Shown here: positions 8,594 through 60,174 of the stretch, in pieces | How the letters are laid out: the number at the start of each line of letters is the position of its first letter | How positions within the stretch are numbered: the stretch's first letter is position 1 | DNA from: Neoarius graeffei | Taxonomy: Eukaryota > Chordata > Actinopteri > Siluriformes > Ariidae | Length of the DNA stretch: 64,000 nucleotides | Assembly: GCF_027579695.1 (NCBI RefSeq) | Contig: NC_083571.1 | Span: forward strand, 88,834,888 to 88,898,887 | Direction of reading: 5' to 3' | The notes under the pieces: model-generated | Database searches by the model: none | Told to the model about the DNA's origin: nothing | What the model saw: only the letters and a program-made list of their open reading frames with translations | Translations under genes and position numbers: made by a program

Positions 8594-8643
<50 letters not shown>

Positions 8644-31755: not shown

Positions 31756-32245
31756 ATAACTTATACCTAATGTACCTCTTACATACTGTTCACTGCCCAT
31801 ATACAGTATATACTACAAATCATCTATGCTGTATAAATTGCAAAATAACATTTATTGGTTAAAATATAATGAAGTTCACACTAAAAATCTACCTCTTCCC
31901 TTTGACCTACAGGTCGGTATTCACTTTCTATGCACCTGTTGTCTGCCTTTTGTCTGCCTGTTTTGCACCAGAAAAGTAGCCTGATTGTGCTTCGTTATAC
32001 TATACAACCCTTGTATTGGCATAATGACAAAGTTGAATTCGGTTTAATTGAAACATGCAAACAATACTTTCTACCTCATCACAGAGATGTGCAATGAAGC
32101 TGAGGAGGTTTGAGCATTTGTGCAGATCACTGCAGCACTAAAAATTAAACGTCTTGTTCACGGAATATGTTTGACTGTACATGTGCTGTACTGTAAGTGT
32201 CAAGGAAGTATTCATCATGGTGTTGATAAAATGTAACCATAAAGC
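31756..32245. other. No feature seen
   Basis: Intergenic, AT-rich; nothing recognised. Confidence 0.4.
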
Positions 32246-33712
32246 ACGGGCGATTGCTCTAAGACAACGAGGGAGGCTCAGCCTCCTCTAAAAATGCCCT
32301 TATAACTTTAACGTGTGCGTGAGTTTCTCCCCCTCGTGACAGCACGATGCAGCGCAGCCTCAGTGGGCTTCAATGGCATTTGGGAGCTCTGCGCTTTTCA
32401 ATCTCAAAATGCAAGACAATTATTGGACAAATACTGCGAAAATGCCCGCCTACGGACTCCGAGCCTCACATGGGAGGGACATGGCAGTTTCCGCGAGGAG
32501 ACTGGTGATTGGTGAAAGCGGCCGGATATTTTCTTTGATTGACAGCTCGTTTCAACTATAGACAGGCAGCGGTGAATTTCAGTTCAGTCCCATGCGGATT
32601 CGCAAGTGCTGTGGTGTATTGTAAGAGATCAGCTTACATTTCGATTTCATTCATTACATACGGTTTCTACCAGCTTTTTTAGTTTGTATATATTTTCATT
32701 GTAAATAAAGTGTAAATATAGTGTTGTCAAGTTTGCTATCTTAGTTCCAGAAATGTCGTTTATTTGAGTGACTGAACTTGAACTTGAGGGGGCTAGTCAG
32801 CTAGCAAGAAAGCTGCGCACGGATGCCAAGCATTGCTGATTTAATTTTGGCGAAGCCATTTGCCAGTCTTCCTTTCGAGGAAAAAATTAAAGAGGAGGGT
32901 AGACCAACGCCTCAAACTGACTTGGTGAAAAAGGTAGGGAATAATACTCATTCCTTTCAGCTCTCCTGGTACGAGAAAGTGAATTGGCTAACAGCAAGTG
33001 ACCCACATCAACAACAGTAAATAGGCTACTTTAGTAATATGTCATGGACGGACCAAAAATAAAGAATCTATTTAAAATGTTTATGCTGAGTATATTGGAA
33101 TATATATTTTTCTGGATATGAATTAAACACAGCTACAATTTGGAAAACATTTTTAAACAAAAACACAGCCGAGAACATTTCACACTACAGACCTGGATTA
33201 AAAGTGAAGGGTTATCAAAATTGTCAATAAAACATTTCTCAGTCAAAATAAGTAAAATATAGGGAAAGTGTCATTGAATGAAATGTGTGGCACCCAGCTC
33301 TACTGCTGAGGTTCCTGACAAAGAGCTGCTTTCAATAATGATCAATTTTTAAACATGCCACAATTTTAAAATATAAAATGTTAAAATATACCCCCCCCCC
33401 AACACCACCATCATGTATATTGGACAGTAGGCTAATGGGCCAAAAGAACCTGTTATTTCACAGTTTGTGATGCTGCCAACAATCAGCCAGATCAGAGGCA
33501 AGAGTATGGGCAAAATTGATGTTTTTTCTTTTAAAATCTGGAAATATCGTAACCGACCAGCCTCCCCTGTTTGAAAGACTACCAGCCGCCACTGCCATAA
33601 AGAGATGCTCACCACCATATGCAGTACCATTCATATATTCTACACTACCACACAGGCTGGACCCAAATATTGATCATTCCATCACCATAATAACAAAAGG
33701 AATGAACTAGTT
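32246..33712 (+). mobile_element. hAT relic
   Basis: 32330-32570 resembles part of the 45612-47037 hAT element (shared CTTTTCAAT...AAAAT...TTATTGGACAAA and GAGCCTCAC words). It is followed by a transposase N-terminal fragment. The outer ends and duplication were not resolved; the right limit is approximate. Confidence 0.5.
32823..33020 (+). pseudogene. hAT transposase N-terminal fragment
   Basis: The frame reads DLILAKPFASLPFEEKIK, then GRPTPQTDLVKKVG and SFQLSWYEKVNWLTASDP, the start of the TTF-type zinc-finger region of hAT (ZMYM-like) transposases. It stops after 65 codons; the core domain is absent. Confidence 0.6.
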
Positions 33713-35763: not shown

Positions 35764-38700
35764 CTGTAATGAAAAGTAAGAAATGATGCTCAGTATTTGT
35801 GTTATTACACGTATAGATGACTTGCAACCACATGATCAAAATGTGCTACGTCATGAGCATCTGCCATGATGGTGGATATACAAAGCCACTAGGATGACAG
35901 CCGCTGGAAGCGTGTCTGTAAACAATGCTGAATTTTCTCAATATTACCATGATTTGAACGTTCAAGTGAAGATTCGATACAAAGAGAAAATGGATGTGCG
36001 TAGTTTTGACCCATATTATCATATTAAATCTTCAGGTGCAGCGTTCTCGCGGGAGCTTTGTTCGCGAATACTGGGCCGAGGTGCAGTCCTACTGACCTGA
36101 GACCATGCTCTTTTGAAGGGGGAGGCTTAGAAGGAGGTGCCTGTAAAATTTGGCTTTGCTGTGCGCTCCATTGGCCTGGTTATTAATTTTTAAAGCCAGC
36201 TGGATCATATTAAATCTTTAGGCGCAGAGCAGTGCTCTCGCGGGGCTTTCGTTCGCAAACACCAGAATACCTGAAATATAAAATAATTGATAGTGCATAT
36301 GGAAAAGGCTTTGGATGAAATGTCTTAACTACTGGATGAAATGGCATTGGACGAAGTATCCTGATCCCCTCGTCTCCTCTCCGTACTAAGCCTCAGAGTT
36401 TCCTCGCCCTCTTTCTGAATCGTGGACGGAATTTTAAAAGATCGGAACATGCCACAGTCACGAGTACTGTTGTGATCACAACCATATACAGCACAAAGAT
36501 ATGGCATAGCTAAAAGAATGCTTAAAGCAGTGAAAAAACAGAGTTGCGCACACGTGACTGTTTTGTATGGAATGTCGCTTGACCCCACATTTGTATATCC
36601 ACCAACATGGCCGACATCCGGGTTTCTATTTTGCTTTGACGTCACTTGCGAGTCAAGGATTGATCATGAAAAATAAGCCTATGTATTAGGAATGTCCCAA
36701 TCTCAATTTTTGAAATTATACCAACATTAGCTCTCTACATACTGTTGATAAATGATTCAGTTCCTCTATCCACAAAGTAACCAGGCAAATTTTCTGCTAA
36801 GTAATATAAACACCAGAGGCATGATGTGGATATAATGTATTTTAAGACAAGTTAAAATGTGCTGTGTTAATACGTATAATTTATGTTGTGACAGTCAACT
36901 TAACATGCAACACAGCAGTGGATCAGCCTGGAAATTATGTGAAATCCTATTCCCTGCAATCCATGGTTTCATACTGGTACTGTATGGTGGCCCATAAGTG
37001 CAAAACCCATTCTGTCTGTTACCATCCTCGTAGTTGAGGGTCGGAAGCCATCAACTAGCTTCCCTGAATTGTCTTGGGTCAGAAGGACCAAAACCAGATA
37101 CGCATACACACCTGTGGGCAATTTAGAGTAGCCAATCGACCTAACCCGCATGTCTTTAGACTGTGAGAGGAAACTGAAGCACCTGGAGGAAACCCATGCA
37201 GACATGGGGGAGAACATGCAAACTCCACACAGAAAGGCTCCCGTCAGCCACTGGGCTCGAACCCAGAACCTTCTTTCTGTGAGGTGACAGTGCTAACCAC
37301 TACACCACCGTGCTGCCGTAAAACCCATTTAATAAACCAAAAAACATCAGAAATTAAAAAAGGCAACACCAAAACCAAAAACACAATGGCAAATTTGGAG
37401 ACATGCAAGCAAATCTGAAAACGCCACAATAAATCCAAAAACACAACAGCAAATTTGGAACTGTGACTGAACATCCAAAAACATGACAGCAAAAACATGA
37501 GACAAAATTGGAACACAACCTTAATTAAAAATTGGTCTTGGCTCAGGTTGGTCTTGACTCAGCATGAGATGCTCATTGCTGATTGGCTACAGAACATGTC
37601 CTCTTGAGAGACCATTGGAGGATGTTTACAATAAGAGGAAATATGAGTCTAACTGGATCTACTGATAATGTTCTTCATGCTTATCTTATCAAGGGCATTC
37701 AAATGATGTTATTTCAGATATGCTATTAATTTTGCACAACATTTAATATGAGTATGTGAAAGCCAGCCTTGAGGAAGCCAGGTACAGTAGTTCAAATGAA
37801 ATCACTCTTCACTATATCATTTTGATTAGGATAACTGTATAAGAGACTGGGGGGAGTGCAATTATTTTTCCTTGTGATAGTCATATGCCATGTACAATCA
37901 GCAACAAACGTGATGTTTATTAAGGACATACCATTTCCATGTTGAGCTCGGGTTGATGTGTTTTTGGATTTCTTGTTGCATTTTCTAATTTGCTCTTGCA
38001 TTTTTGGTTTGTTATTGTGCTTTGCACTTATTGCCCACTGTAGTATTGAACCAGCATCAGATCATCTCCCCTCGGCTACATATGATTAAGATGTCTTTGA
38101 TTTCCTACCTGAGAAAAATATCCATGGAGATAGCCATCTAATGGTGCCATTTCTGCATAAGTATTATGCACCTTATGTCGAAAAGATGCAGAGTGAGGAG
38201 TGTTTCTTTGGGGAGATACTATGAATTGTTGAGCTTGTATTGTGTTGAGTTGATATCCAGAGATGTCGTCATCCTCCATAACATCTCCATTTGGCTCTTT
38301 ATTGAGCATGCTGGCATCTAAGCACTGTGCACTTTGCACCATGGAAGCCTGGTTGAAACTGCTACCAAATGCAGCCACAGTTTGTTGGTCTGCCACAAAA
38401 TAAGCAGACAACAGATCCAGCAACTACAAAATATATAGTGAGCAAAAAAGCAAGAAAAATGTTATTAATTAAAATTTATGGTGTAGTAAAAGTACAGTAT
38501 TGCTTTAGTGCTGCCAGAAAGCGTTCTCTAATGAAAAATACAGTGGAGATTAATCACCAAGTTGGTAAACACTTTGGCAGAGATGTTTAACCACTCCCTC
38601 CTCCTCCTTCAACTGAAAAGTATTTTGTCTGTCACGTTTGATACCGGGGCGGCACGGTGGTGTAGTGGTTAGCGCTGTCGCCTCACAGCAAGAAGGTCCT

Positions 38701-41700
38701 GGGTTCGAGCCCCGGGGCCGGCGAGGGCCTTTCTGTGTGGAGTTTGCATGTTCTCCCCGTGTCCGTGTGGGTTTCCTCCGGGTGCTCCGGTTTCCCCCAC
38801 AGTCCAAAGACATGCAGGTTAGGTTAACTGGTGACTCTAAATTGACCGTAGGTGTGAATGTGAGTGTGAATGGTTGTCTGTGTCTATGTGTCAGCCCTGT
38901 GATGACCTGGCGACTTGTCCAGGGTGTACCCCGCCTTTCGCCCGTAGTCAGCTGGGATAGGCTCCAGCTTGCCTGCGACCCTGTAGAAGGATAAAGCGGC
39001 TAGAGATAATGAGATGAGATGAGACGTTTGATACCAAGTTCAGTTTTTGCAACCAAAATCCACATTTATTTGTTATTTGAAAGCTGTAGTTACAGCTTAA
39101 AATGTTTTCAGTTATAATAGCTGTAATTTACCTGGTCTTCTCCATTGCCTTCAGTGTGGTATGCCATAAGATATTCTTTTGTATCGAAAGGTAGCTCTGA
39201 GAATTCCCTAAATGTCCCACACTGGCAGAATAACAACAACAACAGGGGAATCACTGAAAAGGTAACGGCAAAACATGCTATTAGAAGAGAACAGAACACT
39301 GAATTCTGTACGTATTGTAACATGGATGATAGGTGGTGATCTTGTAAACCAGGAGGAAACATGAAAACTGTAAACATTTATGTATATGTGGATGAATGTC
39401 TTTGATTCAACTCACACATGAGCAGAATTAGTGCTCCGATAAGTACTCCAATGGCAGGAAACCCCACTTTAACTGACAAACCACGTTGACGAACTAGTTT
39501 GGGACCACACGTGCCACCCTTTTCACAGATGCATACCTCTAATTGAAGTTTTTGTTTGTCTTTACATCCCTTATCCTGTCTGTCGAAAATCTCCAAACTG
39601 AGCTCATAAAATCCTATCCATAGATGCTCCTTAGAAAGGAAGCTCACTGTTGTTTCTTAAAAAGAGAAATAAGTAAACAAGCATCCAAAATGTTAGAAAA
39701 TAGTCTTTTAGTGCAACACCAAATCAGAAAATGTGAATGAATAAAAAGAAAAAAAGAAATCGGTGATTTCTAAATTTACTTTGACTTGTATTTCATTGCA
39801 GACAGCATGAACCCAAGATCTTTCATGTTTTGTCTGGTTAACTTAATTTAATTTTTTATACATCCATTCCTGTGTTTGTCCTGCAATACATTCCAAAAAA
39901 AGTTGGGACAGGGGCAATTTATGGCTAGGAATGAGGTAAAACAATTAAATAATTATGTGATTTGAAACAGATGATATCAACAGTGATCGTAATCATGATT
40001 TGGTACAAAATCCAAATCATGGATTTTCCTTTTCCAGGAAAGGCCTAGCCTTTGAGGAGCAAAGATGGGCTGGGGATCTCCAGTTTGTGAACAAATGTGC
40101 AAGAAAGCAATTGAAATGTTTAAAAACAATGTTCCTCAAAGAAATACAGGAAGGGATTTGGATATTTAACCTTCTATGGTGCACATCATTCAACTATTCA
40201 AGGAATCTGAAAGAATTTTTGTGCATAAAAGGCAAAGGTGCAAACCTAAGCTGGACACCCGTGATCTCCAATCCCTCAGATGGAGCTGCATCAAAAACAG
40301 TCATTGATCTATAGCTAATATAACCACATTGGCTTAGCATTATTTTGCAAACCTTTGTCAAGCACTACAATATGGAGTTACGTACACAAATGCAATTTAA
40401 AACTTTTTACTGTGCAAAAAGGAAGCCTTATGGTAACTGTCCAGAAACACCATCGACTTCTCTGGGCTCGGAGGCATCTCGGATGGACCATCACACAGTG
40501 GAAATGTGTATTGTGGTCATCCAAATCTGTATTCACAGGCGCAGATAGAGGGTGGGACGGGTGGGATTCGTCCCACCCAGATTTAAATTCACCTCGTTCG
40601 GTCCCCCCCACTTATAGGGAGGAAAAAACGTCTATGCTGTCTTTCTTTGCATAAGGCAAACCTCACGGAAAAATCAAAAGACTAATTACCATTCGGTTTA
40701 TTGAGGTGCACAGCAGTACATACATAGTTGCAACAACTCGCATAAAACAAAACAAAGACTGATATTCGGTTGGTTGAGCTGCGCAGACTGCACAGGTTGC
40801 GAGCTCGAGCTTGGTTGCTATGGTTACCCACAACAAGTTTGACAGGCATATCGGGGACAGCTCCTAGTTCAGGACCCCAACACGGCATGATGAAGGGTGC
40901 CAAACTGAAAATGCAGAAAATGATTGCATCGTTTTTTCAAAAAACAACGACTAAGTAAACTGTGCCTTACTTTATCATTTCACCTTGCAATTTTTGATAG
41001 TCTGTTCAAAGTAATGTCGTAGTGAAAGTAAAATCGTACAGAGTAGAGATGCCTTTCTGGTAGCCTCCTTCTTTCGGTGGTAGCCTGTAGATACAGTGCT
41101 CAGAAGGCAGTTTTAATGTTTAATCTGGCGTTCCCTGCCATAATTTCAGCGAGCATATTGTTTCATAAGGAAACTTTGCGAAGAGTTGTTGACTGACTGC
41201 CGCTCACGCAACACACAGGCATAGTTAGAAAGTCAACACATGTTGACAACACATGTTGGGGGTGGGGTTGGGGTTGGTTTGCTGGCAGCTTTATCCCCCC
41301 CAGTTCAAAAAACGTATCTGCGCCCCTGTCTGTATTCCAGGTCTTTTTTGGAAGAAACGGACACTCTCTGGGCTCTGGACCAAAGATGAGAAGGCCCATC
41401 CAGACTGTTACAAGCTACAAGTCCAAAATCCAGGGTCTGTCATGGTATGTGGTTGTGTCCGTGCCCTTGGCAAAGGTAACTTACACTTCTGTGATGGCAG
41501 CATTAATGCAGAAAAGTTCAGATTTTGGAGCAACATATTCTGCCTTCAAGATGACGTCTTTTTTCCAAGGATCTTTCGACAAAATAACAAATGCATTCTG
41601 CACACATTACAAAGGCATGACTGTGGAAGAAAAGGGTGCCTGTCCCCAATAGAAAACGTGTGGCAAATTTTGAAATGAAAAATACAATTATTACAACCCT

Positions 41701-44700
41701 ATACTGTTGCACACCTTAAGACCTATTTGCAGGAAAAATGGAACAAAACAATACCTGAAACATTTCATCACTTCAGTCCCTAAAAATCTTTTAAGTGTTG
41801 AGAAGGAATGCCAACATTACAAAGTGGTAAATGCTTTACAATACCAACTTTTTTTTTTTTTTAATGTGTAGCAAGAATCAAAATTGAAATGTGTTTATTT
41901 TTTGGGGAAAAAACCCCAATACAATTCATGAGGTAAAATATAATGTGCTGCTGTTTTGTTTTGAGTGCAATACAGGTCAGAGATTATTCACAAATCATTG
42001 TTTTCAGTTTTAATTCCAATTTGATTCCAATTCCAAAACCATCCCAACCTTTTCGGATTTGGGTTATACCGTAAATCCTCTAATATAGGCCGGGGCCTTT
42101 ATTTCACTCAAGTGCATCTTGGTCCAGGCCATTATTGGAAGGAGGCCAGAATTAGAGGCAGGCCTCTATTTCTATTTGAGCAAAACAGACTACCAGTGGA
42201 ATGAATAAAAACGAGATTTTGTGTCTATTTGAACCTATAAAATAGGTTGATGCTTGGTTGCCTGGTTACCACCAGACCTACCGGTAATCACAATCAGGGG
42301 CGCCTGCAGGGTTGAACTGTAAGGTACGCACTAGCGGTGTAATCCCCCCCCCCCCCCCCCCCAAAAAAAAAAAAAACAAAAACAAAAAAACGCTTGCGTG
42401 CTGCAGTTTCTATGAAGAGTCGATCTATAGGCTTATACACAAAACAACGATAGAACTTTAACTTGAACAATAGCCTTCCATGAACACAGGCTGATATTTG
42501 AACAACATATGTGAACTACACACGACAATAAACAATAAACTCTTTATAGACTCTTTATAAACTCTTTAGAATCTAGTGAACTTGCTCAGCACTACCGCAC
42601 GCACGATTCTGACACACACTGTAGCGCAACGTGGGGTACAGAGACTCGCTGAAAAACTCCTCGGGTATTTTTCTGAGTTTACCGAAAATCAGAGTAGAAG
42701 GAGCCACCCACCCTCTGTCTGGTTTGAAGCGGTTCTGTAGGACATTGAGCTTTACAGAGTCCGGTGCACATTTTAAGGCATCTGGTTGAAGTTTACCTAT
42801 GTCTGATAAATGTGATGTCAGTGATAGCGGGCTGACTCGTGGCTCATTAGTAAAGCTATCTGATGGCTCATTTGTCAGCAAGGTGGAGCAACCATCTACT
42901 TCTGATCGTAAGGGACATGGGGAGATGTAGGTGTTCTTATATGAAATTCACTGGATGTATGGCTAGTTTCAAACTCAGAGGTAGATGGAGGCAATTCCCT
43001 CAAAGGAACTGAGCTAGCATCCAGCTGCAGCGTACTGCTGCTCGGTTGCGGAGGAGTGGAAGCTGCCGGTGCCGTGTTACTAGCTGATACTGGAGAGGAC
43101 TGGCAAGCAGATGACACCCCTGGATCACTGCTTTTGGACTTTTTCGTAAAAGTCTGAAACAAGCTCGTTTGTTTCAGGGTTCGTTTACTCATTTTTGACT
43201 CGCTTCTCAATAAATTCTCGCACAAGCTCTGACTACTGACGATTGTCTGTCTCCGTTTCTCAAAACTGGAGAGAATCTCAGTGGTGCAAGAAAAGTATAT
43301 CTGCATTGACCAATGAGCTTTCTTGGTCACGCACACCCCGCCCACTCCTGAAGCACACAAATGCGCCGGCACACACACGTCTCTCTCTCTCTCTCTCTCT
43401 CTCTAATTATGTTGCATTGCCAAAGTAGACCCCGAAGCCGCCGCCAGGCGCCGCTAAAACCGCCATTTAGAATTTGAGCCGCCGCCAGCCAAAAATTTTG
43501 TAAGCCAATTTGAGCCGCTATCTAATAAAAATTTGGCTGAGCCACTAAGAATTGTGTACATCAAATAATGGGTTTATCCACATCATGAGCTACAAGAAAA
43601 GTGACACAAACATGATCAACTGTACACACTAGTAGTAACACAATAGAGACGTATAGGCATACACTGTAGAGATTTAGAACTGATATCACAGCACAGAGAG
43701 CCACCACAAGCTTGCCGTTGTGACTACCTGTCTGGCTTCCCGCCCCTCACACCGTTACCACGATACACTGGGGAACCCGGGAACCCACCCAGAGCATCAA
43801 TCGACTCCGATATCGACGAGATGGCTGCATTCTTTGCCGCTGCTGAGGGAAAGTGTAAAGGTATTTTTTTGTTTGTTTGTTTGTTTGTTTGTTTGCACGT
43901 CCAGGTTTTTCCGGGATTGTCCCGGTTTTTTTGTGGAAAATGGAAAATGTCCAGGAAAATGGAATAACCTTCCCGGGACACGTTTTGTCCCGGTTTTTTA
44001 CTTCCTCACATTATCCCCCATTGAAATAAACACAAATCATTAATGTTTCTCGCAGCCACTTAACATATTAATAGTTTTCACGTAAGCGGGCATATTGTAG
44101 GCAGCTGCTTGTGTGGCCTCACCGAATGTTTGCGCACGCAGCCAGTCACCGTTGCTAGGTGATCGTGGTCAATACAACGGCGGCCGCGCGAAATCAAAGA
44201 TACTGGAATACCGTAATACCAAACAATAGGTGAGAGTTCCCTTGGTCGGTGCGCGAGTAGGCTGGCTGTCTACTTCCTATGTTCTGATTCTGATAAAGGC
44301 TGGTTCTAAAGCCTGGGCCAATTTCATCAATAAATGAATCATTAAATAAATCATTAAATATATCAAAAAAGAATGCCTGAACACTGGCGTGAGAAATGAA
44401 TAAATCGGTTGTCCCAATAACATAGCATCTCTCTCTTGTGATTAAAACAAAGGATTAGGGCTATTTGGTATGATACGGTAGTCTAACTTTTAAAGTTCAG
44501 TTCTCCAGAGAAAAGGCTAAAACAACAACGAAGCAGACTGAGAGAAATTATATTGATTATATTTGTATTTTGATTTGGAAACGGAATGGGAGGAGAGACA
44601 GACGATGAGTGAGTCGGACAGAATGAAGTAGAAGATCCGGTACCTGTCAAAAAGAAAAAAAAATTGTTAAAAAAAAATATTGGCGTCCAAATAAGATCAT

Positions 44701-47700
44701 TCCTATATGAAATTATTTTTTGTAATAATATTTGTGGTAGTGCCCATTTAAGGGTTAAGAAGACAAAATGAATTTTAACTAAACGCCTAACTGCACCAGT
44801 TGAACTGTTTTATTTTTAAACGTGAACATTCACATAAGGCATCGTAGATGTGCGTGTCCGCAGCCCTCAACCCCCGCGCTCGTACGTGCGCGCAGGCGCG
44901 GCCGCCGACCGATGTGTCCCGGTTTTTTACAACTCAGATCTGGCAACCCTATTCACATACTTCGAGATTGATTAAAAAAAAAAAAAGTACTCCACCACTC
45001 TACTTTCATCATAGTAAGATAGCTGCCAGTCCTTCACTGGTCATTGCTAGTGAGAGTAGATAGCTAGATGCCTTCCTCGAACAATCCAGATTAGCTTATT
45101 ATTAGCATTGAACTACAATCTTGCTAGATTTATATTTACAATGAAGTAAGAGACCAGGGGACCTGTGGTAATTTGCTATTTATTCCCCCCATTTGTTTGA
45201 TCCGTTCGCCCGGATATATGCCACACAGTGACGTCCAGTATCAGCCATTTGTAGCCATAAACATTTTGGTGGCTGCAGCAGCCATTAAGGTTTTGGCTGA
45301 GTCAGCTAGCCAGCCAATAATTTCATCAGCCAGCCATTATCCTGAAAACAAACGGCTTCGGGGTCTATGCCAAAGCATTCAGGTAACAATTATAATTAAA
45401 AAAAAAATCTCTCTCCCCAAGGTACGCCTAGTGCGTACGGCCATACGCCTGGCGGCGCCACTGATCACAATTGTCTTTCAGATCGGAACGATTGTGTAAG
45501 GCCACTATGATCTCAGAAACATCGTTGGTTATAGCCCCGGCCTGTATTAGAGTCCGGCCATTATTTACCTCCTCCGACAGCGAGACCGGCCAATATTAGA
45601 GTCCCGGCCAGCAGGGCCGTAACCAGGATTTTTCAAATACCGAGGTCAAACATTGCGATACATCTTATTTGCCAAAAAAAAAAAAATGTCCTAATATGGT
45701 GACTTTTCATACATTTTGGAAACGAGTCAAAATCACAAGCCCAACAAGATGAACATGTAGGTGAACATGTTTATTTTAACAATTTCAAAACTGCACGATC
45801 ACAAAAGTATTTTGTGTGTGTGTGTGTGAGAGAGAGAGAGTGTGTGAGAGTGAGTGAGTGAGTGAGTGAGTGAGAGTTTGAGTGAGTGATGGAGTGTGAG
45901 TGAGTGAGTGAGAGAGTGTGAGTGAGAGAGAGAGAGTGACAACGCAATCTAGCCGAGCCTGAATGGACTTCAATTGCTTTTAAAAAAATATCTGCCCTTT
46001 TCAATAGCAAAATACTAGACGGTTATTGGACAAAACCGACTAAAACGCCACATTGGGAGACTGAGCCTCACTGGAGATGGGAGTCAATAAGAGGGGCGGG
46101 ACAAGACTTCCCGAGAGGAGGCTCATCTCCAGCTGGTGATCAGAGGAGCAGCTGTGAACGCGGCTGGGCTGGTCATGATTGACAGAAAGCAGTCAGAGGT
46201 GGTACATCATGTTGTAAATAAAATGTGAACATAATAAGTTTGCTACCCGTTTTCATTTCCGTTCGAAAATACAACCAATGATCAAAACAACAGTGTCTTG
46301 TGTTCACGTTAGCCTATAGTCTGGTAAGTTAGCAAAATAGCTCAAGTCTCGTCAGCACCCAATAACTTCATAAACAGGTCACGACTGCCCAGCCTTTTCT
46401 GATCTGAAACGCACCAAATCAAATCGAGAGAGAGAATAAAAGAGTTTGTGCCGCCTGGAAAACGAAAATCCTATCTAGCTAAGTGGCTTCGACTGTTGTT
46501 GCTTGAAATGCTAATTAAAATTGCACTGTTAATGATCATAAGCATTCCGGCACATAACTGTCAGTGACTGGCAAAATTAACTCCCCTTCTTCCCTCTTTC
46601 TTTTTCTCTCACTTGTTGACTTTCCAGAGCTGAGTTTGGTTTGTTTTAATGTAGTAGACTTCTTCATCTTATGTCAATTTTCAGATTCCACGACTAATTG
46701 ACAAACTGGCTGGCTGCGGAGTCGGACCTTGATGAGAACACTTCTCAACTCTTGTGTATCCCGCGGTGCTTAGCTGACTGTCGCGAGGCTGCCGGATATG
46801 AAATGTTTCCAATGTCGGATATTTCAGCTTCGTTTAAAAATGATTATGTGGACTTTATTTTTAGACAAACAAATGAGAACAGGGAGATGCAAGCTGAATT
46901 TAGAATTTTCCACCAATCAAAGTCAGAACGATTTTCATCATATATTAATTTCACATTTCTGAGTGAAAAAAAAAATACCGTGGGAAAAAAATGCCGAGGA
47001 CATGAGCTCGGTGTCCTCAATGGTAGTTACGGCCCTGCCGGCCAGTAATGGAATACAGGCCAGTATTAGAGGATTTACTGTAGTTAGAATGGACAATGTT
47101 TTACTGTTTATTATCCTCAATATGCACAGGAACATAAACATTATAGAATAATATTTGTATGCTTTTACCATTTACAGGAACCATCTCCCATTTTCCATGA
47201 GTCTCTTCCTCTATCAGAACAAATTTATAAGGCTCTCCGTTGGGATAGTCATCCTCATCGAATGCAGTCACAGTTACCACTTTACTATCAGAACAGATAA
47301 TCTGGTAGGTGCTGGTCAGTGTAGGACAATTGTCATTTGAATCCTGAACCTTTAGAACTATTGTTCCAGTAGCTGTCTTGGGTGGCATGTCTAAGTTAAA
47401 AAAAAAAAAAGTGCTTAAAATTCTTTGGCACACTTAGGGCAAATACAGTATAATGAGACATGCATTCACATCCACGTTAATGTGGGAACACCTGTTCACC
47501 TGCTAATTTTTGCAGCCAATCATGTGGCAACAGCACAATGCATAAAACCATGTAGATAGAGGTCAAGAACTTCAGTTAAAGTTCACATCAAACATTGGAA
47601 TGGGGGAAAAGTGTAATCTCTGTGCTTTTAACCACGCTGTAGTTGTTGGTGCCAGATGAACTGGTTTGAGTATTTCAGAAACTGCTGATGATCTGGGATT

Positions 47701-53700: not shown

Positions 53701-56700
53701 AAACAAACATGGTCGCCAGGTTTGCTTCGTTAAATATGGAAGATTTTGAGAATTTTTTTTTTACCTTCATTACCATATTGCTGTCTAAAAGCAGAACAAT
53801 TCTGACTTTTGAACAAAGACAAGCTTCTACTATGTTATATGAAAACATTCAGGTGATCTGCTCCTATAATCCTATCTACTTCACCGAGTGTGTGAAGATA
53901 AGCCAAAAATCTCATCTCGTCACATTTCATCAATGATGCAGTGTGCCCTTGTTATTGTAAAACATCCATCCATCCATCCATCCATCCATCATCCGTAACC
54001 ACTTATCCTGTGCAGGGTTGTGGGCAAGCTGGAGCCTATCCCAGCTGACTATGGGTGAGAGGTGGGGTACACCCTGGACAAGTCACCAGGTATTGTAAAA
54101 CACGAGTTTTTAAATTATTTATACTAGGTCCGATCATCCAGTTTTCTGTCTCATACTTTTGGCTGAAAGTAAAATGTTTTGTTCATATACATGGAATGTA
54201 CTGGAAAATGTTTCCTGATTTATGCTAGCCAGTGACATGTTTAAGTTTTGACAAATCTGTAAGTCAAGTTCCTCTCTGATGCAGTGAGTAGCATCTCATT
54301 TCTTAAACAACCATTTTGGAAGATATATTCCACGATTGTGGAAAAGATATTAGTGTTTCAAACAGTTAAAGTATTGGCCTGCATTAAGCAAAGAAAACAA
54401 CTAAAGAAGATTGCTGAAATGACTGGAATTGGGTTAAAGTGCCATTCCACCATTGGATGTATTCTTTGGCATAAAATACAATATATTTTATGACAACATG
54501 ACTAGACAGAGAAATCTTTTAGCTTCAAAATGATATATCAAACATAATTTTTTGACAACGACAAGTATATTAATTTTGCGACCAAAGTCACCTACCCTTT
54601 TAATTTCCGTGCGGTAGTGAAACGTGAGGTCATCAGCAGGTTCCCCTTCTTGTGTACCACGTGTCGGTCTATTTTTAGACCAGGAAACCCCCAAAGTGAG
54701 AGAGTCATTTCTCCTCGTATATGGGGGCCAAAAAAATTGCGAAAAATTTAGTTAATCTTTCAGTTAGCTAGATTTATTGGTATTAGCTAGATTTATTGGT
54801 ATTATTTTTATCGTGTTCTATCCGCCATTGCTGATAATATGTGCCACATCACGTGGTACACAAGAAGGGGAACCTGCCGATGACATCATGCGCGGAAATT
54901 AAAAGGGTAGGTGACTTTGGTCGCAAAATTAATATACTTGTCGTTGTCAAAAATTATGTTTGATATATCATTTTGAAGCTAAAAGATTTCTCTATCTAGT
55001 GATACCATTTATATATGTTGTCAAAATATATTGTATTTTATGCCAAAGAATACATCCAATGGTGGAATGGCACTTTAAGAACTGTCCAACTCATTATTAA
55101 AACCTGGAAGGATAGTGGTGAACCATCAACTTGGTGGAAGAAATGTGGTCAGAAAAATTTTTTTTTGACTGTCCATGATCAGAGATCACTGAAACACTTG
55201 GTAAAGTCAATTTGTTAAAAAAATCAACAGTTGAATTCATGGCTATGTTTAATAGTGAAAGTAAGAGCATTTCTACACACAATGTGACAAATGCTCACAG
55301 GATTGGGACTAAACAGCTGAGTGGCCCTAAGAAAACCACTTGTTAGTCAGACTAATCGGAAGAAATTGTTTCAATTTTCCAGGGAGCATAAAGTTTGGAC
55401 TCTGGAGTAATGGAAAAAGGTCATGTGGTCTGACGAGTCCAGATTTACCCTATTCTAGAGTGATGGATGTGTCAGTGTAAGAAAGGAAGCACATGAAGTG
55501 ATGCACCCATCATACATAGTGGCCACTGTACAAGCCTCTGGAGGCATGATCTGGGGTTGCTTCAGTTGGTCAGGTTGAGACTCAGCAACATTATGTGGCA
55601 ATAAAATGAAATGAAGTCAGCTAGTGACCTGAATGTACTGAATGACCAGGTTATCAAACCCTGATGGCACGGGCATACAATTAGAGCTGAGATTGTGAAA
55701 GAGTGGTTCAGGGAGCATGAGAAATCATTTTCACACATGAATTGGCCACTGCAGGGTCCTGATGTTAACCCCATTGAAAGTCTTTTGAGATGTGCTGGAG
55801 AAGACTTTACAGAGTGGTTTGACTCTCCCATCAATACAAGATCTCAGTGAAAAATTAATGCAGTTCTGCATGGGAATAAATGTTGTGTTGTGTATTAGTT
55901 TGTTGAAACAATGCTACAGGGAATGTGTGCCATAATCAAGGCTAAATGCAGTCCAACAAAATGTTAATGTTTTTTTTTTTGGCCAGGCAGTGTATATGAA
56001 TTTGCAATAGTAATATTTAGTATATTTCTTGTTAAATGATTGTTACTGATTTATGGCTTGCCATATTCATGAAGATTATTTCCATTATGCATGATCTTTA
56101 TCTAGACAAAAGTGTGATGTTTGTTTAAGTCACTTATATAACCCAAACTACTACTCATTCTTATACATTATTTGGGATTATTCTATTTTTTTTATTATTA
56201 CTGTTCAAGAATTTATTTTCGTTATTCACTTTTTATATGATGCTATAGAAATAAAGCTGATTTGAGTGGTAGGTGTAGCTGATAAAATGGCCAATGAGTA
56301 TAGCTACAAGACAGGTGCATATATTGTATATTAAAATATTATAAAGGCACTGTTACCTCATCTTTTTCAATAGTAGGAGCATTGTCGTTGATATCTAAAA
56401 CTTTAATCTTCACTGTACCAGTTCCTGTGTTACCACTTGGTGCTCCGTCCATATCTACACCTTGCACTATTAATGTGTACGAATCACACACCTATATGAA
56501 ATAAACCAGAAGTAAGATAATTCCATTCATTAGACAATGCTAATTTAAAGTTAAGATCACTTAATTGGTGGTGCACACACAATCATTATGTGGTTAGAAA
56601 TGAGTTGGGGGAAGGAAAAAAAAAGATCTTAACACCACATACCTCCCTATCCAGGGTATGTTCTTTAACAGAGATCTTCCCAGTTTCTCTGTCAATGGTG

Positions 56701-59450
56701 AACATGTTGCCAGATTGTTCTGGAATTTGCTTCAATATACTGTATGCAATCTTTGAATTTGGTGTCCCCTGTTGATCTGCATCCTCAGCAGTTACCTGCA
56801 TGACAGGGGTTCCTACAGTGTTGTCGGAAACATGCTATTAAATATTAAAGAGCACAATACAATGTAGCCACATTTTTATATAAGGAGGAAAAATCCATTG
56901 TAGTCTGTTTTACAGATAAGGGCATTTTAGTTAAAGAAAGGATTCATAGTGCATAAATACCTATTGGGCTGCATTCTCTTACAGTTCCAGTGAATAACTT
57001 GAACACAGGGGTACTGTCATTCTCATCTTCAACCTCTATTTTCAGCTCGACTCCTTCCTCAGCCAGACTGCCACCTTTGTATTTAGCAATCCCAGTCAGC
57101 TACAAGTGGATATCGCACACAGATAACTCAGTCAAGAGAATAAAAATAAAAAAAAATGCTCAAAATTGTACACAACTACAAATGGAAATTATAAGTATGA
57201 TTACTGTAAGACTATGTGATCAATGTTATATAGTAGATTTATGAATGTCTCTGCTGTATTCCAACTTACATTGTATTTTGATACTTTCTCTCTGTCCAGA
57301 ATACCTGTGATTCTGACAAAGCCATTTTGGGGGTTGACAATAAACAGGTTAAATGGCTCCTTGTCAGCACCAGGTCCTCGCAGGCTGTACTCAAATGGTT
57401 TGCTTCCAGTATCCTTATCAGACCTGATCTAAACAAAATAAAATAAATCATTAAAAAAATCCATTGACTCTACCAGTCAAATGTTTAGACACACCTACTC
57501 ATGTTTTTCTGCATTTTGACTGTTTTCTACATTGTAGAACAATACTGAAGAAATTGAAACTATGAAATAACATATGGAACATGTATCAAATTATGTGGTA
57601 ATCAGTAAAGTGTAAAAAAAAAAGTTTATTTTAGATTCTTCAAAGTAGCCACCATTTACCTTGATGCTTTGCACACTATTAGCATGATTGAGGTAGTCAC
57701 GTGGAATACTTCTCAGTTAACAGGCGTGCCTTGTCAAAAGTTAATTAGTGCAATTTCTTGCCTTCTTAATGTGTTGGAGATCAAACAGTAAATAGCAAAT
57801 AATAAAAATACAGTAAATAGCCCTATTCCACAACTGTAGTAATCCATATTATGTCAAGAACCGCTCAACTAACTAAAGAGAAACAACATCCATCATTACT
57901 TGAAGACTTGAAGTGTTTTTTTTTTAAATTAATTAAAAAACACTGAATGAGAAGGCATGTCCCAATGTTTGACTGATACGGTATCTGTCCATGTCTGCAT
58001 TAAATCCCAATGCATCTGGCTTGTTCCTCACTCACTCACTCAGTCACTCATGTTTAAGAGGAAGATCCACAAGGTGGAACACTTGCACTGAACCTACGCC
58101 AGCACAGCATGATATATGCACCTTTCTTTACACTTAGAGTTCCCAAATAAAGCCAGAAAAGTTCATTTGAAGATTCTATTTACACCCCACAAATGAGGTA
58201 GAGCAAATTTGGTAAATCTCTAAAAAGCCATTTTAGTGCGAGTCAGCACATTTTTTTTGATTGTCCCCCTGTCTCTGCCTTTTGGTTAGACTTTTTGATT
58301 TTCTTTGTATTAAAAAAAAAAGGCTAATTTTAAAACTTACAGTATAATGTAATGTGCTACTTTTCACATAAAGATTTGGACATTGTCTCACTAATAACTG
58401 TTTGGATGATATCATCTCATCTCATTATCTCTAGCCGCTTTATCCTTCTACAGGGTCGCAGGCAAGCTGGAGCCTATCCCAGCTGACTACGGGCGAAAGG
58501 CGGGGTACACCCTGGACAAGTCGCCAGGTCATCACAGGGCTGACACATAGACACAGACAACCATTCACACCTACGGTCAATTTAGAGTCACCAGTTAACC
58601 TAGCCTGCATGTCTTTGGACTGTGGGGGAAACCGGAGCAAACCCACGCGGACAACATGCAAACTCCACACAGAAAGGCCCTCGCCGGCCCCAGGGCTCGA
58701 ACCCAGGACCTTCTTGCTGTGAGGCGACAGCGCTAACCACTACACCACCTGTTTGGATGATGAATAACAAAATCCTAAAACTGATCAAATGTATGATCCT
58801 TTATGAATGTAACATTTTTGTAATTCCCTTTTTTGTTCCATTTTTAAAATCTTTTATAAATCTTGCCATCCATATTTCATTTTTCTTACTTGGAATTTGT
58901 CTAAGTTTTGTACATTTATTTGTTGTATTAAAAATATCTTTGCACTCAGGGTGTTTGTATAGATCCAGAATAGTTTCTAAAATTAGACTCAGAGCTAACA
59001 TTCACCAGACTGTAAAGCCATATGGTTAACATCTTCATTTATGTTGTTGCTTTACCTTTATTACCATATTGCTGTGTAAATTCACCACAGAATGTACTGG
59101 AAAATGTTGCTTGGTTGAGTTAGACTGTGAAATGTTTGTTTGAGAAACCTGTAAGTCAAGTTCTTCTCGGATGTGTCTAGGATGTATTTCATGGGCTGAG
59201 TCTCAATCTGAACTTTTAAACTGATCTTAACATGTCAAAGTTATGTGAAACCCCCCCATCTCTGTCCCCTATTCAAGGCTTTCCTTTCACATACCTTTAC
59301 AGGCCTAAATTTTATTCACATGATTGAACGTTGAATGCTTACCTTCAGAATGAATTCTTGTTTTGTGTAGTCAACATTCTCTTGGAGTTTTGTTGGTGGG
59401 AGGAGCCATTCACGCTTCTTTCTCATGAATCCAATTACAGTTTGTGTTGC
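35026..59450 (-). CDS. dsg2: Desmoglein (dsg2-like), 13 exons, signal exon not secure
   Basis: Thirteen minus-strand exons join in phase: 59343-59450, 57270-57428, 56961-57099, 56643-56812, 56357-56491, 50690-50875, 50106-50542, 49783-49925, 47169-47390, 39416-39655, 39132-39253, 38109-38423, 35026-35763 (1037 codons plus stop; human DSG2 has 1118). Desmogleins are calcium-dependent cadherins that hold desmosomes together. In order: propeptide ending RKKR, mature EWLLPP with the strand-swap Trp at position 2, four cadherin repeats with DxND and LDRE calcium motifs, extracellular anchor with paired Cys, one membrane helix ([20 protein letters not shown]), then the intracellular catenin-binding segment ([19 protein letters not shown]) and a tail with a short repeat. 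It lies next to ttr, as in mammals. The DSG2 label rests on synteny and overall similarity; fish have dsg2 duplicates. Confidence 0.9.
35816..36655. mobile_element. Relative of the 3529-4519 element
   Basis: It starts GACTTGCAACCACATGATC and ends GACGTCACTTGCGAGTC, with GCCATGATGG near the left and CCAACATGGCCGACATCCGG near the right, as at 3529-4519. A plus frame at 35894-36100 ([18 protein letters not shown]) occupies the position of the unknown fragment there. Ends are approximate. Confidence 0.5.
36975..37316 (-). mobile_element. Old, diverged SINE
   Basis: A reverse copy of the tRNA-headed SINE, much more diverged than the others (CTAACCACTACACCACCGTG is still clear at its 5' end). It marks an earlier insertion wave. 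Confidence 0.7.
37320..37530. repeat. Degenerate short repeat (CCAAAAACACAACAGCAAAT-like)
   Basis: Units of about 30 bp containing CAAAAACACAA.(A/G)GCAAATTTGGA recur several times with changes. Low-complexity satellite-like block in a dsg2 intron. Confidence 0.6.
38109..38423 (-). CDS. dsg2: dsg2 cytoplasmic exon
   Basis: A 105-codon phase 0/0 exon between acceptor ATTTTGTAG and donor GTAGGA. It encodes [20 protein letters not shown] to [11 protein letters not shown], which aligns with the mammalian EEFLRNYF region just before the catenin-binding segment. Much of the middle is poorly conserved. Confidence 0.8.
38646..39023 (+). mobile_element. tRNA-headed SINE, full length
   Basis: A near-consensus copy with exact 12-bp duplication ACGTTTGATACC (38634-38645, 39024-39035), in the dsg2 intron between 38423 and 39132. 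Confidence 0.92.
39132..39253 (-). CDS. dsg2: dsg2 exon, end of membrane helix
   Basis: Acceptor ACCTTTTCAG, donor GTAAAT. It begins within the helix ([13 protein letters not shown], the desmoglein PLLLLxCxCG signature with a Cys pair that is palmitoylated in mammals) and runs to GNGEDQ. Confidence 0.9.
39416..39655 (-). CDS. dsg2: dsg2 exon, extracellular anchor and start of helix
   Basis: Acceptor CTCTTTTTAAG, donor GTGAGT. It encodes [18 protein letters not shown], then [24 protein letters not shown] and [11 protein letters not shown]. The Cys pattern CxC...TCG is the desmoglein anchor domain. Confidence 0.92.
39712..42066 (+). mobile_element. Decayed Tc1 copy
   Basis: Left end CAACACCAAATCAGAAAA and right end (complement of AACCCAAATCCGAAAAGG) match the family of 23373-24970. 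Transposase fragments occur in order: 40037-40250, 40355-40520 ([20 protein letters not shown]), 41340-41650 ([30 protein letters not shown]). Many stops. It is split by a hAT insertion. Confidence 0.75.
40535..41329. mobile_element. hAT-type element inside the Tc1 copy
   Basis: Exact 8-bp duplication CTGTATTC (40527-40534, 41330-41337). Ends ACAGGCGCAGATA and the complement of ACAGGGGCGCAGATA. The Tc1 transposase sequence resumes exactly after it. A fragment near 40880-40955 ([14 protein letters not shown]) resembles a hAT N-terminus. Confidence 0.88.
42573..42881 (-). pseudogene. hAT transposase fragment, second part
   Basis: Reads [20 protein letters not shown], then [20 protein letters not shown] and IPEEFFSES, the region just ahead of the core in ZMYM-like hAT transposases. 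It is out of frame with the first part. Confidence 0.55.
42896..43192 (-). pseudogene. hAT transposase N-terminus
   Basis: Begins [20 protein letters not shown] (a nuclear-type basic start with the SLF.FF-like motif common in hAT proteins), then a Ser/Thr/Pro-rich stretch. The start codon is chosen by this motif. It is truncated by frameshift into 42573-42881. Confidence 0.6.
43380..43403. repeat. (TC)n microsatellite
   Basis: About 12 CT units inside the 42295-45463 hAT element. Confidence 0.9.
43426..45367. mobile_element. hAT element nested in hAT element
   Basis: Exact duplication TGCCAAAG (43418-43425, 45368-45375). Ends TAGACCCCGAAGCCG and its complement, perfect over 15 bp. The interior shows GCCGCC/AGCCAGCC words at both sides, a (TTTG)n tract (43869-43895) and probably a further insertion ending AGATCTGGCAACCCT near 44955. 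Confidence 0.87.
45612..47037. mobile_element. Third hAT element of the nest
   Basis: Exact duplication CCGGCCAG (45604-45611, 47038-47045). Ends CAGGGCCGTAAC on both sides inward. The interior has a (GAGT)n tract and a region similar to 32330-32570. No transposase core. Confidence 0.88.
45820..45935. repeat. (TGAG)n / (TG)n simple repeat
   Basis: Mixed TG, AG and GAGT units over ~115 bp within the 45612-47037 element. ORFs called across it are artefacts of the repeat. Confidence 0.9.
47169..47390 (-). CDS. dsg2: dsg2 exon, end of cadherin repeat 4
   Basis: Acceptor TTTTTAACTTAG; donor at AATG|GTAAAA, chosen over an earlier CCT|GTAAAT because only the former keeps phase with the next exon (VPVNETTVSFL). 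It encodes [19 protein letters not shown] (calcium motif DSNDN) and the start of the anchor domain. Confidence 0.9.
47822..48600. mobile_element. TIR element, non-coding
   Basis: Inverted ends GTTGTTTTACAATCAGGGTA and its complement GTACCCTGATTGTAAAACAA, perfect over about 20 bp. Inside, TCTCGGAGAGGAC / TCTCCGAGACGAC flank T-runs. No coding frame of note. Confidence 0.75.
48602..48722. mobile_element. Short hairpin MITE
   Basis: About 120 bp with ends GGGTGTGTTTCCCAAAAGC and GCTTTTGGGAAACTCAGG. It resembles a known teleost hAT-like hairpin family by its TTTCCCAAAAGC ends. Confidence 0.6.
48960..49480. mobile_element. Scrambled Tc1-family pieces
   Basis: Segments of the same Tc1 family in both orientations (TCTAGAGTTTACACAGAATG forward near 48975; GAGTGGAACCCAATGT and AATCAGCAGTTTCTGAAATA in reverse). 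A rearranged remnant. Confidence 0.5.
49505..49671 (-). mobile_element. Second SINE family, short copy
   Basis: Exact 12-bp duplication TTTGATGTGAAT (49493-49504, 49672-49683). A (CAT)n-type tail stands at the left and GGATGCCCTTCCTGCCGCAA inside, a well-known teleost SINE motif. Orientation inferred from the tail. Confidence 0.75.
49783..49925 (-). CDS. dsg2: dsg2 exon in cadherin repeat 4, flanked by probable GC donors
   Basis: It encodes [20 protein letters not shown], then [20 protein letters not shown] and CMTK, closely matching mammalian DSG2 (DNWISVD.VTSEIKL). The acceptor CAAACGCAG is normal. The best donor is AAAG|GCAAGA; an in-frame alternative GT lies 15 nt further on (AACC|GTGATA). 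Confidence 0.88.
50106..50542 (-). CDS. dsg2: dsg2 exon, cadherin repeat 3 with KPG-rich insertion
   Basis: Acceptor GATGCATGAAG; donor GTCAG|GCAGGT, a GC donor needed for phase. It encodes [20 protein letters not shown], then an extra low-complexity loop (about 50273-50431: [20 protein letters not shown] and further KP/KPG units), then [17 protein letters not shown] and the start of repeat 4 ([13 protein letters not shown]). The loop replaces a short linker in mammals. Confidence 0.88.
50690..50875 (-). CDS. dsg2: dsg2 exon, cadherin repeat 3
   Basis: A 62-codon phase 0/0 exon, acceptor GTACTTTTTAG, donor GTATAC. It encodes [34 protein letters not shown] and [18 protein letters not shown], the classic desmoglein DKDLE.TDNW / NEGI signature. 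Confidence 0.93.
51241..51913 (+). mobile_element. Harbinger-type element, copy 2
   Basis: 673 bp, ends TGCCGCTTTTCCACTAC and the complement of TGGCCCTTTTCCACTACC, with 3-bp duplication TAA (51238-51240, 51914-51916), typical of PIF/Harbinger. Tandem GAGCTGA/GGGCTGA-like words lie near both ends. Confidence 0.85.
51491..51619 (+). CDS. 42-residue ORF of the Harbinger-type element, copy 2
   Basis: [20 protein letters not shown] then [16 protein letters not shown] to LQKFS, TAA. Same start, length and stop as copies 1 and 3. A larger overlapping frame (51349-51585) exists but its residues vary more by context; I prefer this one because of its ATGG start. Confidence 0.4.
   Translation: MEDMESLVLLVLVLWLVVTDNANRYWQERIDEARRIRLQKFS
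52634..52943. mobile_element. hAT-type MITE
   Basis: 310 bp, ends CAGTGGTTCTCAAAC and the complement of CAGTAGTTTTCACAG, flanked by TTGTATAG / CTGTATAG (7 of 8 match). GGAACCCCAC and GGACCCC repeats inside. Confidence 0.75.
53964..54090 (-). mobile_element. 5'-truncated SINE piece with (GGAT)n tail
   Basis: Exact duplication TATTGTAAAAC (53953-53963, 54091-54101). It holds only the 3' part of the tRNA-headed SINE (GCAAGCTGGAGCCTATCCCA) but its tail is GGAT repeats instead of ATGAG. Confidence 0.85.
54340..55992 (+). mobile_element. Tc1-type copy, decayed, with palindromic insertion
   Basis: Transposase remnants are legible at DNA level (ACTGTCCAACTCATTATTAA, GAGCATAAAGTTTGGACTC, CACTGCAGGGTCCTGATGTT). 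It ends GGCCAGGCAGTG before TA at 55993-55994. The left end is lost. It is interrupted at 54438-55074. Confidence 0.7.
54438..55074. mobile_element. Large palindromic MITE with TTAA flanks
   Basis: Two arms of about 225 bp (54438-54662 and 54852-55074) are near-perfect inverted repeats, starting AGTGCCATTCCACCATTGGA. TTAA stands on both sides (54434-54437, 55075-55078), a piggyBac/Kolobok-type target. The ~190-bp loop has a tandem AGCTAGATTTATTGGTATT pair (54766-54803). No coding sequence. Confidence 0.88.
56357..56491 (-). CDS. dsg2: dsg2 exon, end of cadherin repeat 2
   Basis: A 45-codon phase 0/0 exon, acceptor TTTCATATAG, donor GTAACA. It encodes [20 protein letters not shown] to [16 protein letters not shown] with the intact DINDN calcium motif between repeats 2 and 3. 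Confidence 0.93.
56643..56812 (-). CDS. dsg2: dsg2 exon, cadherin repeat 2
   Basis: Acceptor ACACTGTAG (57 codons, phase 1 to 0), donor GTATGT. It encodes [20 protein letters not shown], then IAYSIL and [14 protein letters not shown]. An upstream AG (TTTAATAG) would extend the exon but breaks the frame. Confidence 0.92.
56961..57099 (-). CDS. dsg2: dsg2 exon, repeat 1/2 boundary
   Basis: Acceptor CCACTTGTAG, donor GTATTT. It encodes [20 protein letters not shown], the calcium motif DENDSTPVF (changed from the usual DxNDN) and [13 protein letters not shown] strong GTAAGA inside the exon (after FTG) is a possible cryptic donor. Confidence 0.88.
57270..57428 (-). CDS. dsg2: dsg2 exon, cadherin repeat 1
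   Basis: A 53-codon phase 0/0 exon, acceptor ATTTTGTTTAG, donor GTAAGT. It encodes [37 protein letters not shown] and ILDREK (calcium motif). Confidence 0.92.
57467..57925 (-). mobile_element. Tc1-type fragment
   Basis: Starts CTACCAGTCAAATGTTTAGA, the end of a widespread fish Tc1 family, followed by antisense transposase remains. Truncated at the right. Confidence 0.65.
58411..58748 (-). mobile_element. tRNA-headed SINE
   Basis: A slightly deleted copy with exact 13-bp duplication CTGTTTGGATGAT (58398-58410, 58749-58761). Confidence 0.9.
59343..59450 (-). CDS. dsg2: dsg2 exon, propeptide cleavage site and mature N-terminus
   Basis: Acceptor TTGTGCTTAAG, donor GTAAGC, 36 codons, phase 0/0. 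It encodes [13 protein letters not shown], a furin-type site, then [15 protein letters not shown]. Trp at mature position 2 is the adhesive strand-swap residue. Confidence 0.9.
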
Positions 59451-59799: not shown

Positions 59800-60174
59800 A
59801 TCTCATCTCATTATCTCTAGCCACTTTATCCTGTTCTACAGGGTCGCAGGCAAGCTGGAGCCTATCCCAGCTGACTATGGGCGAAAGGCGGGGTACACCC
59901 TGGACAAGTCGCCAGGTCATCACAGGGCTGACACATAGACACAGACAACCATTCACACTCTCATTCACACCTACGGTCAATTTAGAGTCACCAGTTAACC
60001 TAACCTGCATGTCTTTGGACTGTGGGGGAAACCGGAGCACCCGGAGGAAACCCACGCGGACACGGGGAGAACATGCAAACTCCACACAAAAAGGCCCTTG
60101 CCGGCCACAGGGCTCGAACCCAGACCTTCTTGCTGTGAGGCGACGGCACTAACCACTACACCACCACGCCGCCC
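59800..60174 (-). mobile_element. tRNA-headed SINE, full length
   Basis: A near-consensus reverse copy inserted at the end of the solo Tc1 fragment. No clear duplication is seen, possibly because the Tc1 rest was deleted at the same time. Confidence 0.85.

Follow-up and report, generated by a model that had tools for sequence, protein, structure and literature searches.

Here we present an analysis of a transposon nest that fills a single desmoglein intron in 64,000 nucleotides of genomic DNA from the siluriform fish Neoarius graeffei (this whole stretch is hereafter referred to as the window; all positions are counted within it). The nest comprises a Tc1-like element, a TA-flanked element and four elements of hAT type (hAT-A, hAT-B, hAT-C and hAT-D). 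Three hATs, not four, struck the intron. hAT-A, hAT-C and hAT-D landed separately, as their families carry other duplications at other sites and hosts without them exist. By contrast, hAT-B is not a local insertion: it entered the TA-flanked element, and the pair then multiplied. An earlier description made from the letters alone (the sequence-only reading) had recognized four hAT-type elements with different ends, and its boundaries and nesting are borne out here. The elements are as follows (strand is given where assigned).

39714..42066, plus strand: old Tc1-like element with a broken transposase; its length is 1550 bp when hAT-A and one duplication are left out
40534..41328: hAT-A, 795 bp, flanked by its duplication TCTGTATT (40526-40533 and 41329-41336)
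42067..47082: composite (TA element with hAT-B), 1632 bp when hAT-C and hAT-D are left out, with TA on its outer sides (42067-42068 and 47081-47082)
42287..45471: hAT-B together with both copies of ATCACAAT, carried as cargo by the composite; the element itself is 42295-43425 and 45376-45463, 1219 bp without hAT-C
43426..45367: hAT-C, 1942 bp, local insertion into hAT-B; duplication TGCCAAAG at 43418-43425 and 45368-45375
45612..47037: hAT-D, 1426 bp, inserted locally in the TA part and flanked by its duplication CCGGCCAG (45604-45611 and 47038-47045)

Copy searches were run against the same genome (2.34 Gb in 38 contigs), with only the best 40 candidates scored per family. These searches, which the sequence-only reading had suggested for each end-defined element, returned copies elsewhere that confirm the element ends. 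Insert-free sites, also suggested there, were found for hAT-A, hAT-C and hAT-D; they are other copies of the host elements, not the same intron in other species.

hAT-B as the cargo of a TA-flanked composite

With hAT-C removed, the hAT-B query had 347 candidates, and 39 of the 40 scored are other copies. In the first 12 fetched, ATCACAAT stands on the left in all 12 and is exact on both sides in 10; the right flank reads tgtctt in 12 of 12, and the left flank ccggta in 10, with one change in the other two. Twenty further left borders comprise 15 with ATCACAAT, one with a single change and four with another flank, such that 28 of the 32 other copies checked share the duplication (one of them with the single change). 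When the flanks were widened, 11 of the 12 loci held a whole TA-flanked element of 1583-1625 bp, and the twelfth a composite missing only its right tip. The sequences surrounding these composites differ, as judged by eye over 25 bp. The outer TA is present at both ends in 9 of the 11 full composites (of the other two, one ends in TG on the right and one in AT), which is the target duplication of Tc1/mariner/pogo-type elements. The outer ends are, by eye, presumably pogo-like; the portions available to us of two papers on pogo-type elements (PMC9976928, PMC7325037) do not settle their superfamily.

The same junction is reached from the other side. With a TA query freed of hAT-B and hAT-D there were 536 candidates. 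The 40 scored, counting the window's own copy, are all 100% identical over positions 1-228 and all end at the hAT-B junction; each of the 20 that were read past the junction continues into hAT-B. Because the same duplication and junctions recur in other copies with differing flanks, hAT-B is carried as cargo. Identical internal junctions in copies with different flanks are also the mark of a composite miniature inverted-repeat transposable element (MITE).

These recurrences bear directly on the sequence-only reading, in which all four hATs landed successively in the intron, within 7 kb. Each of the four does have an exact 8-bp duplication at the locus, and the hAT-A, hAT-C and hAT-D families show independent sites, so for these three the claim stands. 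hAT-B is another matter: its duplication and junctions are found again in 12 of 12 hAT-B copies of the first set, in 16 of 20 of the second, and in all 20 TA copies read. Independent hits at one base position are not credible so often, and successive local landing is thus refuted for hAT-B; as an account of all four elements it is very improbable.

We give just as little credence to a preference of hAT-B for one exact site, ATCACAAT, at which it would have struck many TA elements separately. Such a preference agrees with the occupation of the same site in all 40 scored TA copies, and hAT-D has a comparable common site (ACTGCTGC) in five copies of another repeat. Against it stand the free copies of hAT-B. 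Free ends, identified by a pattern in which the neighbouring base is unlike that of the composite, number 15 on the right and 26 on the left (0 in a reversed-pattern control); 11 of the 15 and 9 of the 26 were read, and none has the composite flank. They include nine paired free elements of 718-1383 bp, of which eight have exact 8-bp duplications of their own and the ninth a duplication with one change. All nine duplications differ from one another and from ATCACAAT, although one sits in a TG repeat and is uninformative. Moreover, an unoccupied TA site was seen in 0 of the 40 scored copies, and the 12 fully read composite copies of hAT-B are near-uniform in length (1196-1217 bp) in comparison to the range of the free elements.

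Since these free elements have the same ends and their own 8-bp duplications, hAT-B is a true hAT; one of its frames resembles, by eye, what we take to be the start of a TTF-finger transposase. That hAT-B might be the mere middle of the TA element, with the ATCACAAT repeat and the inverted ends arising by chance, agrees with the position of the best-scoring hAT-B copies within the TA element but is refuted by the free elements, which end at the same bases with duplications of their own, and is the least probable of the three alternatives.

Local insertions of hAT-A, hAT-C and hAT-D

The sequence-only reading reported four exact 8-bp duplications, and all four are present (40527/41330, 42287/45464, 43418/45368 and 45604/47038), with a shift of one base at the Tc1 site, where the duplication sits in a 9-bp repeat. 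The reading CTGTATTC proposed for that site is one base off: 30 full-length copies fix the ends of hAT-A at 40534 and 41328, giving TCTGTATT. The inverted ends are identical over 15 of 15 bases in hAT-C and 12 of 12 in hAT-D, and match at 12 of the first 14 in hAT-A and 13 of the first 16 in hAT-B; all four elements thus have the short terminal inverted repeats of the hAT superfamily.

As a chance control, we counted exact 8-mer pairs lying 200-4000 bp apart beside inverted ends in 100 random sequences, each of 64 kb and drawn from a first-order Markov model. The random expectation is 0.01 pairs per sequence for inverted ends matching at 11 or more of 12 positions, and 0.37 pairs at 10 or more of 12. 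hAT ends usually start with CAG or TAG, and with both ends starting in this way, 0.03 pairs per sequence are expected at 9 or more of 12. The window contains five pairs at 11 or more of 12, including hAT-C (12) and hAT-D (12); one of the five (54532/54962) is not hAT-like in appearance. hAT-B has both ends of the CAG/TAG type and matches at 9 of 12. The structures of hAT-B, hAT-C and hAT-D are therefore far beyond chance. For hAT-A the shifted reading gives 10 matches in 12, a weak score by itself, and here the family copies decide.

hAT-A was scored in 40 copies of 1923 first-look candidates, and the others are 95-98% identical to it. All 30 copies examined (own included, as in the counts for hAT-C and hAT-D below) are full length; in 23 of them the 8-bp duplication is exact. 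That a Tc1 copy was hit by a hAT, as the sequence-only reading held, is confirmed: in 39 of 39 other Tc1 copies the sequence reads through the hAT-A site uninterrupted. With hAT-A removed, the Tc1 protein aligns without a gap over the site to that of a Tc1 at 23.7 kb, the frame changing 8 residues beyond it. This protein alignment and the TA on the right identify the host as a Tc1-type element. The Tc1 at 23.4 kb served as reference for placing its ends, and, within a few bases, 6 of the 39 matches to other copies start there and 5 of the 39 end there. The left flank is TG (39712-39713), where TA would be expected, and the match to HTH_Tnp_Tc3_2 (E = 7e-5) lies under the Pfam cut-off. The Tc1-like element at 23373-24970 has long inverted arms and a frame of 360 residues uninterrupted between two stops.

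For hAT-C, 40 copies were scored of 782 candidates; all 12 examined have exact duplications that differ from one another, and the hAT-C site is intact, with a single TGCCAAAG, in 12 of 12 hAT-B copies. Inside hAT-C, loosely matching flanks seen by eye had hinted at a fifth hAT (about 43.9-44.95 kb); it was rejected, as 28 other hAT-C copies span 1-1942 and the segment is thus family sequence.

For hAT-D, 40 copies were scored of 1506 candidates and 30 were examined, 28 of which are full length (two that extend past the fetched stretch were excluded); 24 of the 28 have an exact duplication. The window's CCGGCCAG occurs in 0 of 27 other hAT-D copies, and hAT-D is missing from all 11 full composites. 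Two duplications are shared between hAT-D copies, ACTGCTGC in five and GTTCCATC in two neighbouring copies. The five ACTGCTGC copies (L045, L053, L065, L069 and L071, one with two changes on one side) lie within a single repeat, 1.78 kb or more in length. Copies of this repeat share 98-99.5% identity, compared with 97.5-99.1% over the last 1000 bp of hAT-D. A frame in this repeat resembles the start of a BED finger, by eye. The repeat and hAT-D may be a second composite. In it, hAT-D looks older than its surroundings. The GT/GAGT microsatellite of hAT-D (45812-45940) is expanded in several copies (L065-L072), with element lengths of up to 2018 bp. The central part of hAT-D resembles positions 31900-33300 of the window at about 70% DNA similarity; this segment, probably an older relative, also has a frame that resembles, by eye, the start of a hAT transposase. 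A Pfam scan of four frames from hAT-B, hAT-C and hAT-D matched no transposase family.

Order, age and history of the insertions

The nesting places the Tc1-like element before hAT-A, hAT-B before hAT-C, and the TA element before hAT-B and hAT-D, in agreement with the sequence-only reading. Its further statement that relative ages follow without alignment holds for such nested pairs but extends neither to the Tc1-like element relative to the TA element nor to hAT-A, hAT-C and hAT-D among themselves. The right end of the Tc1-like element (42066) borders the TA at 42067-42068, which doubles as the left TA of the composite; because this one TA is common to both, ordering the two by nesting is impossible. 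Sequence divergence, by contrast, indicates that the Tc1-like element is the older, as it is 76-83% identical to its other copies and the composite is about 1% from its consensus.

Private changes number 3 in 735 positions for hAT-A, 5 in 1775 for hAT-C, 8 in 1269 for hAT-D and 7 in 1494 for the composite, counted against 29, 11, 21 and 11 other copies, respectively. These similar values indicate that the arrivals of hAT-A, hAT-C, hAT-D and the composite were close in time, and do not order them beyond the nesting. The composite and these three hATs look recent and the Tc1-like element looks old. Individuals or near relatives still without hAT-A, hAT-C and hAT-D may accordingly exist, given their recent arrival. 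Dating the nest by divergence from consensus was abandoned, as it is too noisy and contradicts the nesting for hAT-D.

In the history that we consider very probable, the composite already held hAT-B when it arrived, and hAT-A, hAT-C and hAT-D followed locally. An intron with about 144 bp of its own sequence would first have received the old Tc1-like element. Much later, a non-autonomous TA-flanked composite of about 1.6 kb would have entered at the TA bordering the right end of that element. hAT-B would have jumped elsewhere, most simply once, into an ancestral TA-flanked element, and the two would have been copied as a unit by a transposase recognizing the outer ends. After the composite had arrived, hAT-C would have inserted into its hAT-B part and hAT-D into its TA part; hAT-A would have inserted into the Tc1-like element. 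The 8-bp duplications and inverted ends suggest that these three moved by cut-and-paste, with hAT transposases acting in trans.

Several observations weigh against this history. Of the 39 other scored hAT-B copies 32 were read, and the four of these with another flank are without the first 8 or 25 bases of hAT-B. Scoring the best 40 per family favours window-like copies. A TA element free of hAT-B was absent among the 40 scored of 536 candidates, where a similar B-free copy would outscore the others; likewise no autonomous partner for the composite was found, no protein-level search having been made. Finally, hAT-D diverges from its consensus by 2.1-2.2%, and its host composite by only 0.9-1.1%. 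The private changes of hAT-D and its host overlap within error, however, and we attribute the excess to subfamilies of hAT-D, the nearest sampled relative of which is 2.3% away.

Three hAT-B copies without the first 8 bases (L113, L114 and L116) have a common alternative left flank, and four more scored copies begin at the same position of hAT-B. This flank perhaps marks a further amplified unit built on hAT-B.

It is conceivable, but in our view unlikely, that the capture of hAT-B founded the composite family and coincided with its expansion, instead of being neutral baggage. The idea comes from the same absence of a B-free TA element, and from the identity of these best-scoring 40 over the outer 228 bp. 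If it is correct, the composite would have two usable sets of ends, with the whole movable by one transposase and the core by another.

Genomic setting and comparison with known systems

The sequence-only reading had placed the nest at 39656-47168, inside one desmoglein intron. This span coincides exactly with the whole of that intron (phase 1, GT...AG), as defined on the minus strand by the donor at 47168/47167, the acceptor at 39657/39656 and the open frame of the joined exons. The best match in the PDB to the 125-residue protein of the joined exons is 5j5j (named Desmocollin-2,Desmoglein-2; E = 3.9e-24), followed by the desmoglein-2 chains 7a7d and 5erd, which rank above desmoglein-3 and the desmocollins. 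The desmoglein-2 alignment is single and crosses the exon junction, with a one-residue gap at the junction; a single exon alone was also matched against the PDB. Only 144 of the 7513 bp have no transposon assignment. The surrounding features are as follows.

39656..47168, minus strand: desmoglein intron, 7513 bp, phase 1, 98% transposon (splice sites, open joined frame, PDB alignment across the junction)
47169..47390, minus strand: upstream desmoglein exon; the far end, 47390, was read by eye from a TTAG acceptor
39378..39655, minus strand: downstream desmoglein exon, beginning at 39655; 39378 marks where the open frame stops
39656..39713: intron sequence without transposon assignment, 58 bp
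47083..47168: intron sequence without transposon assignment, 86 bp
4753-5110, 7195-7440, 16859-17235, 17962-18332, 38645-39022, 58412-58749 and 59800-60174, both strands: copies of a repeat resembling a short interspersed nuclear element (SINE)

This short repeat, SINE-like by eye, has many copies that are up to 99% identical. An Rfam search gave 0 matches. Two further hAT-like pairs match at 11 of 12 positions of their ends, one at 1556-3036 (duplication GTTTATAC, ends of CAGGGCTTTTCA type) and one at 6506-9066 (duplication GTTCCTAA, ends of TAGGGTTGCAAA type). The pair at 54532-54969 that is not hAT-like is bounded by exact 8-bp copies of GATATATC, and its ends, AAACATAATTTT, agree at 12 of 12 positions.

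The sequence-only reading had called the concentration of hATs unusual, which is not established. Measured against the first-look counts of the three families, which are not confirmed copies, three local hATs have a chance of 4e-7, or about 0.13 such stretches per genome, and are rare. Measured against the window itself, where the other 56.5 kb hold two more hATs of complete structure, the chance is 0.0026, or about 800 stretches per genome, and they are common. The stretch was, in addition, chosen for its nest. hAT and Tc/mariner elements are among the most widespread groups in ray-finned fish, according to the part available of a review (PMC7599744). For a fish the nest as such is ordinary; what is of use here is the composite family.

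The 8-bp target duplications (exact in 23 of 30 copies of hAT-A, 12 of 12 of hAT-C, 24 of 28 of hAT-D and 8 of 9 free copies of hAT-B) and the short inverted ends are shared with the hAT superfamily as described in the accessible part of PMC3942097. At 795-1942 bp, however, hAT-A to hAT-D fall short of the 2.5-5 kb that the paper gives for hATs, and by their termini only we file them as putative non-autonomous hATs.

Nesting serves to order transposon activity, and its use for this is established: the available text on Transpositions-in-Transpositions (TinT; PMC3014933) likewise derives relative age from nesting, but counts nested pairs genome-wide, whereas we have treated one locus. An exact duplication inside a host element proves insertion into the lineage of that host, not at the locus being read. 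Without a comparison of copies, the one insertion of hAT-B would count anew at every copy of the composite, and a single inherited nest could be recounted per copy in counts of the TinT type if copies sharing junctions are not collapsed.

In the parts consulted of the literature on nested and composite elements we noticed no same case besides MER6, and make no claim of absence from print. The mammalian composite MITE MER6/MER6A, as far as described in the excerpt of PMC6887750, is alike in having a transposon inside Tc1/mariner-type ends, the two multiplied together. Its cargo is a V-SINE body, whereas the cargo here is a hAT that retains its two ends and its target duplication; the family is from a fish and its copies are very young. 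The present family is thus a further composite case, with a hAT as cargo.

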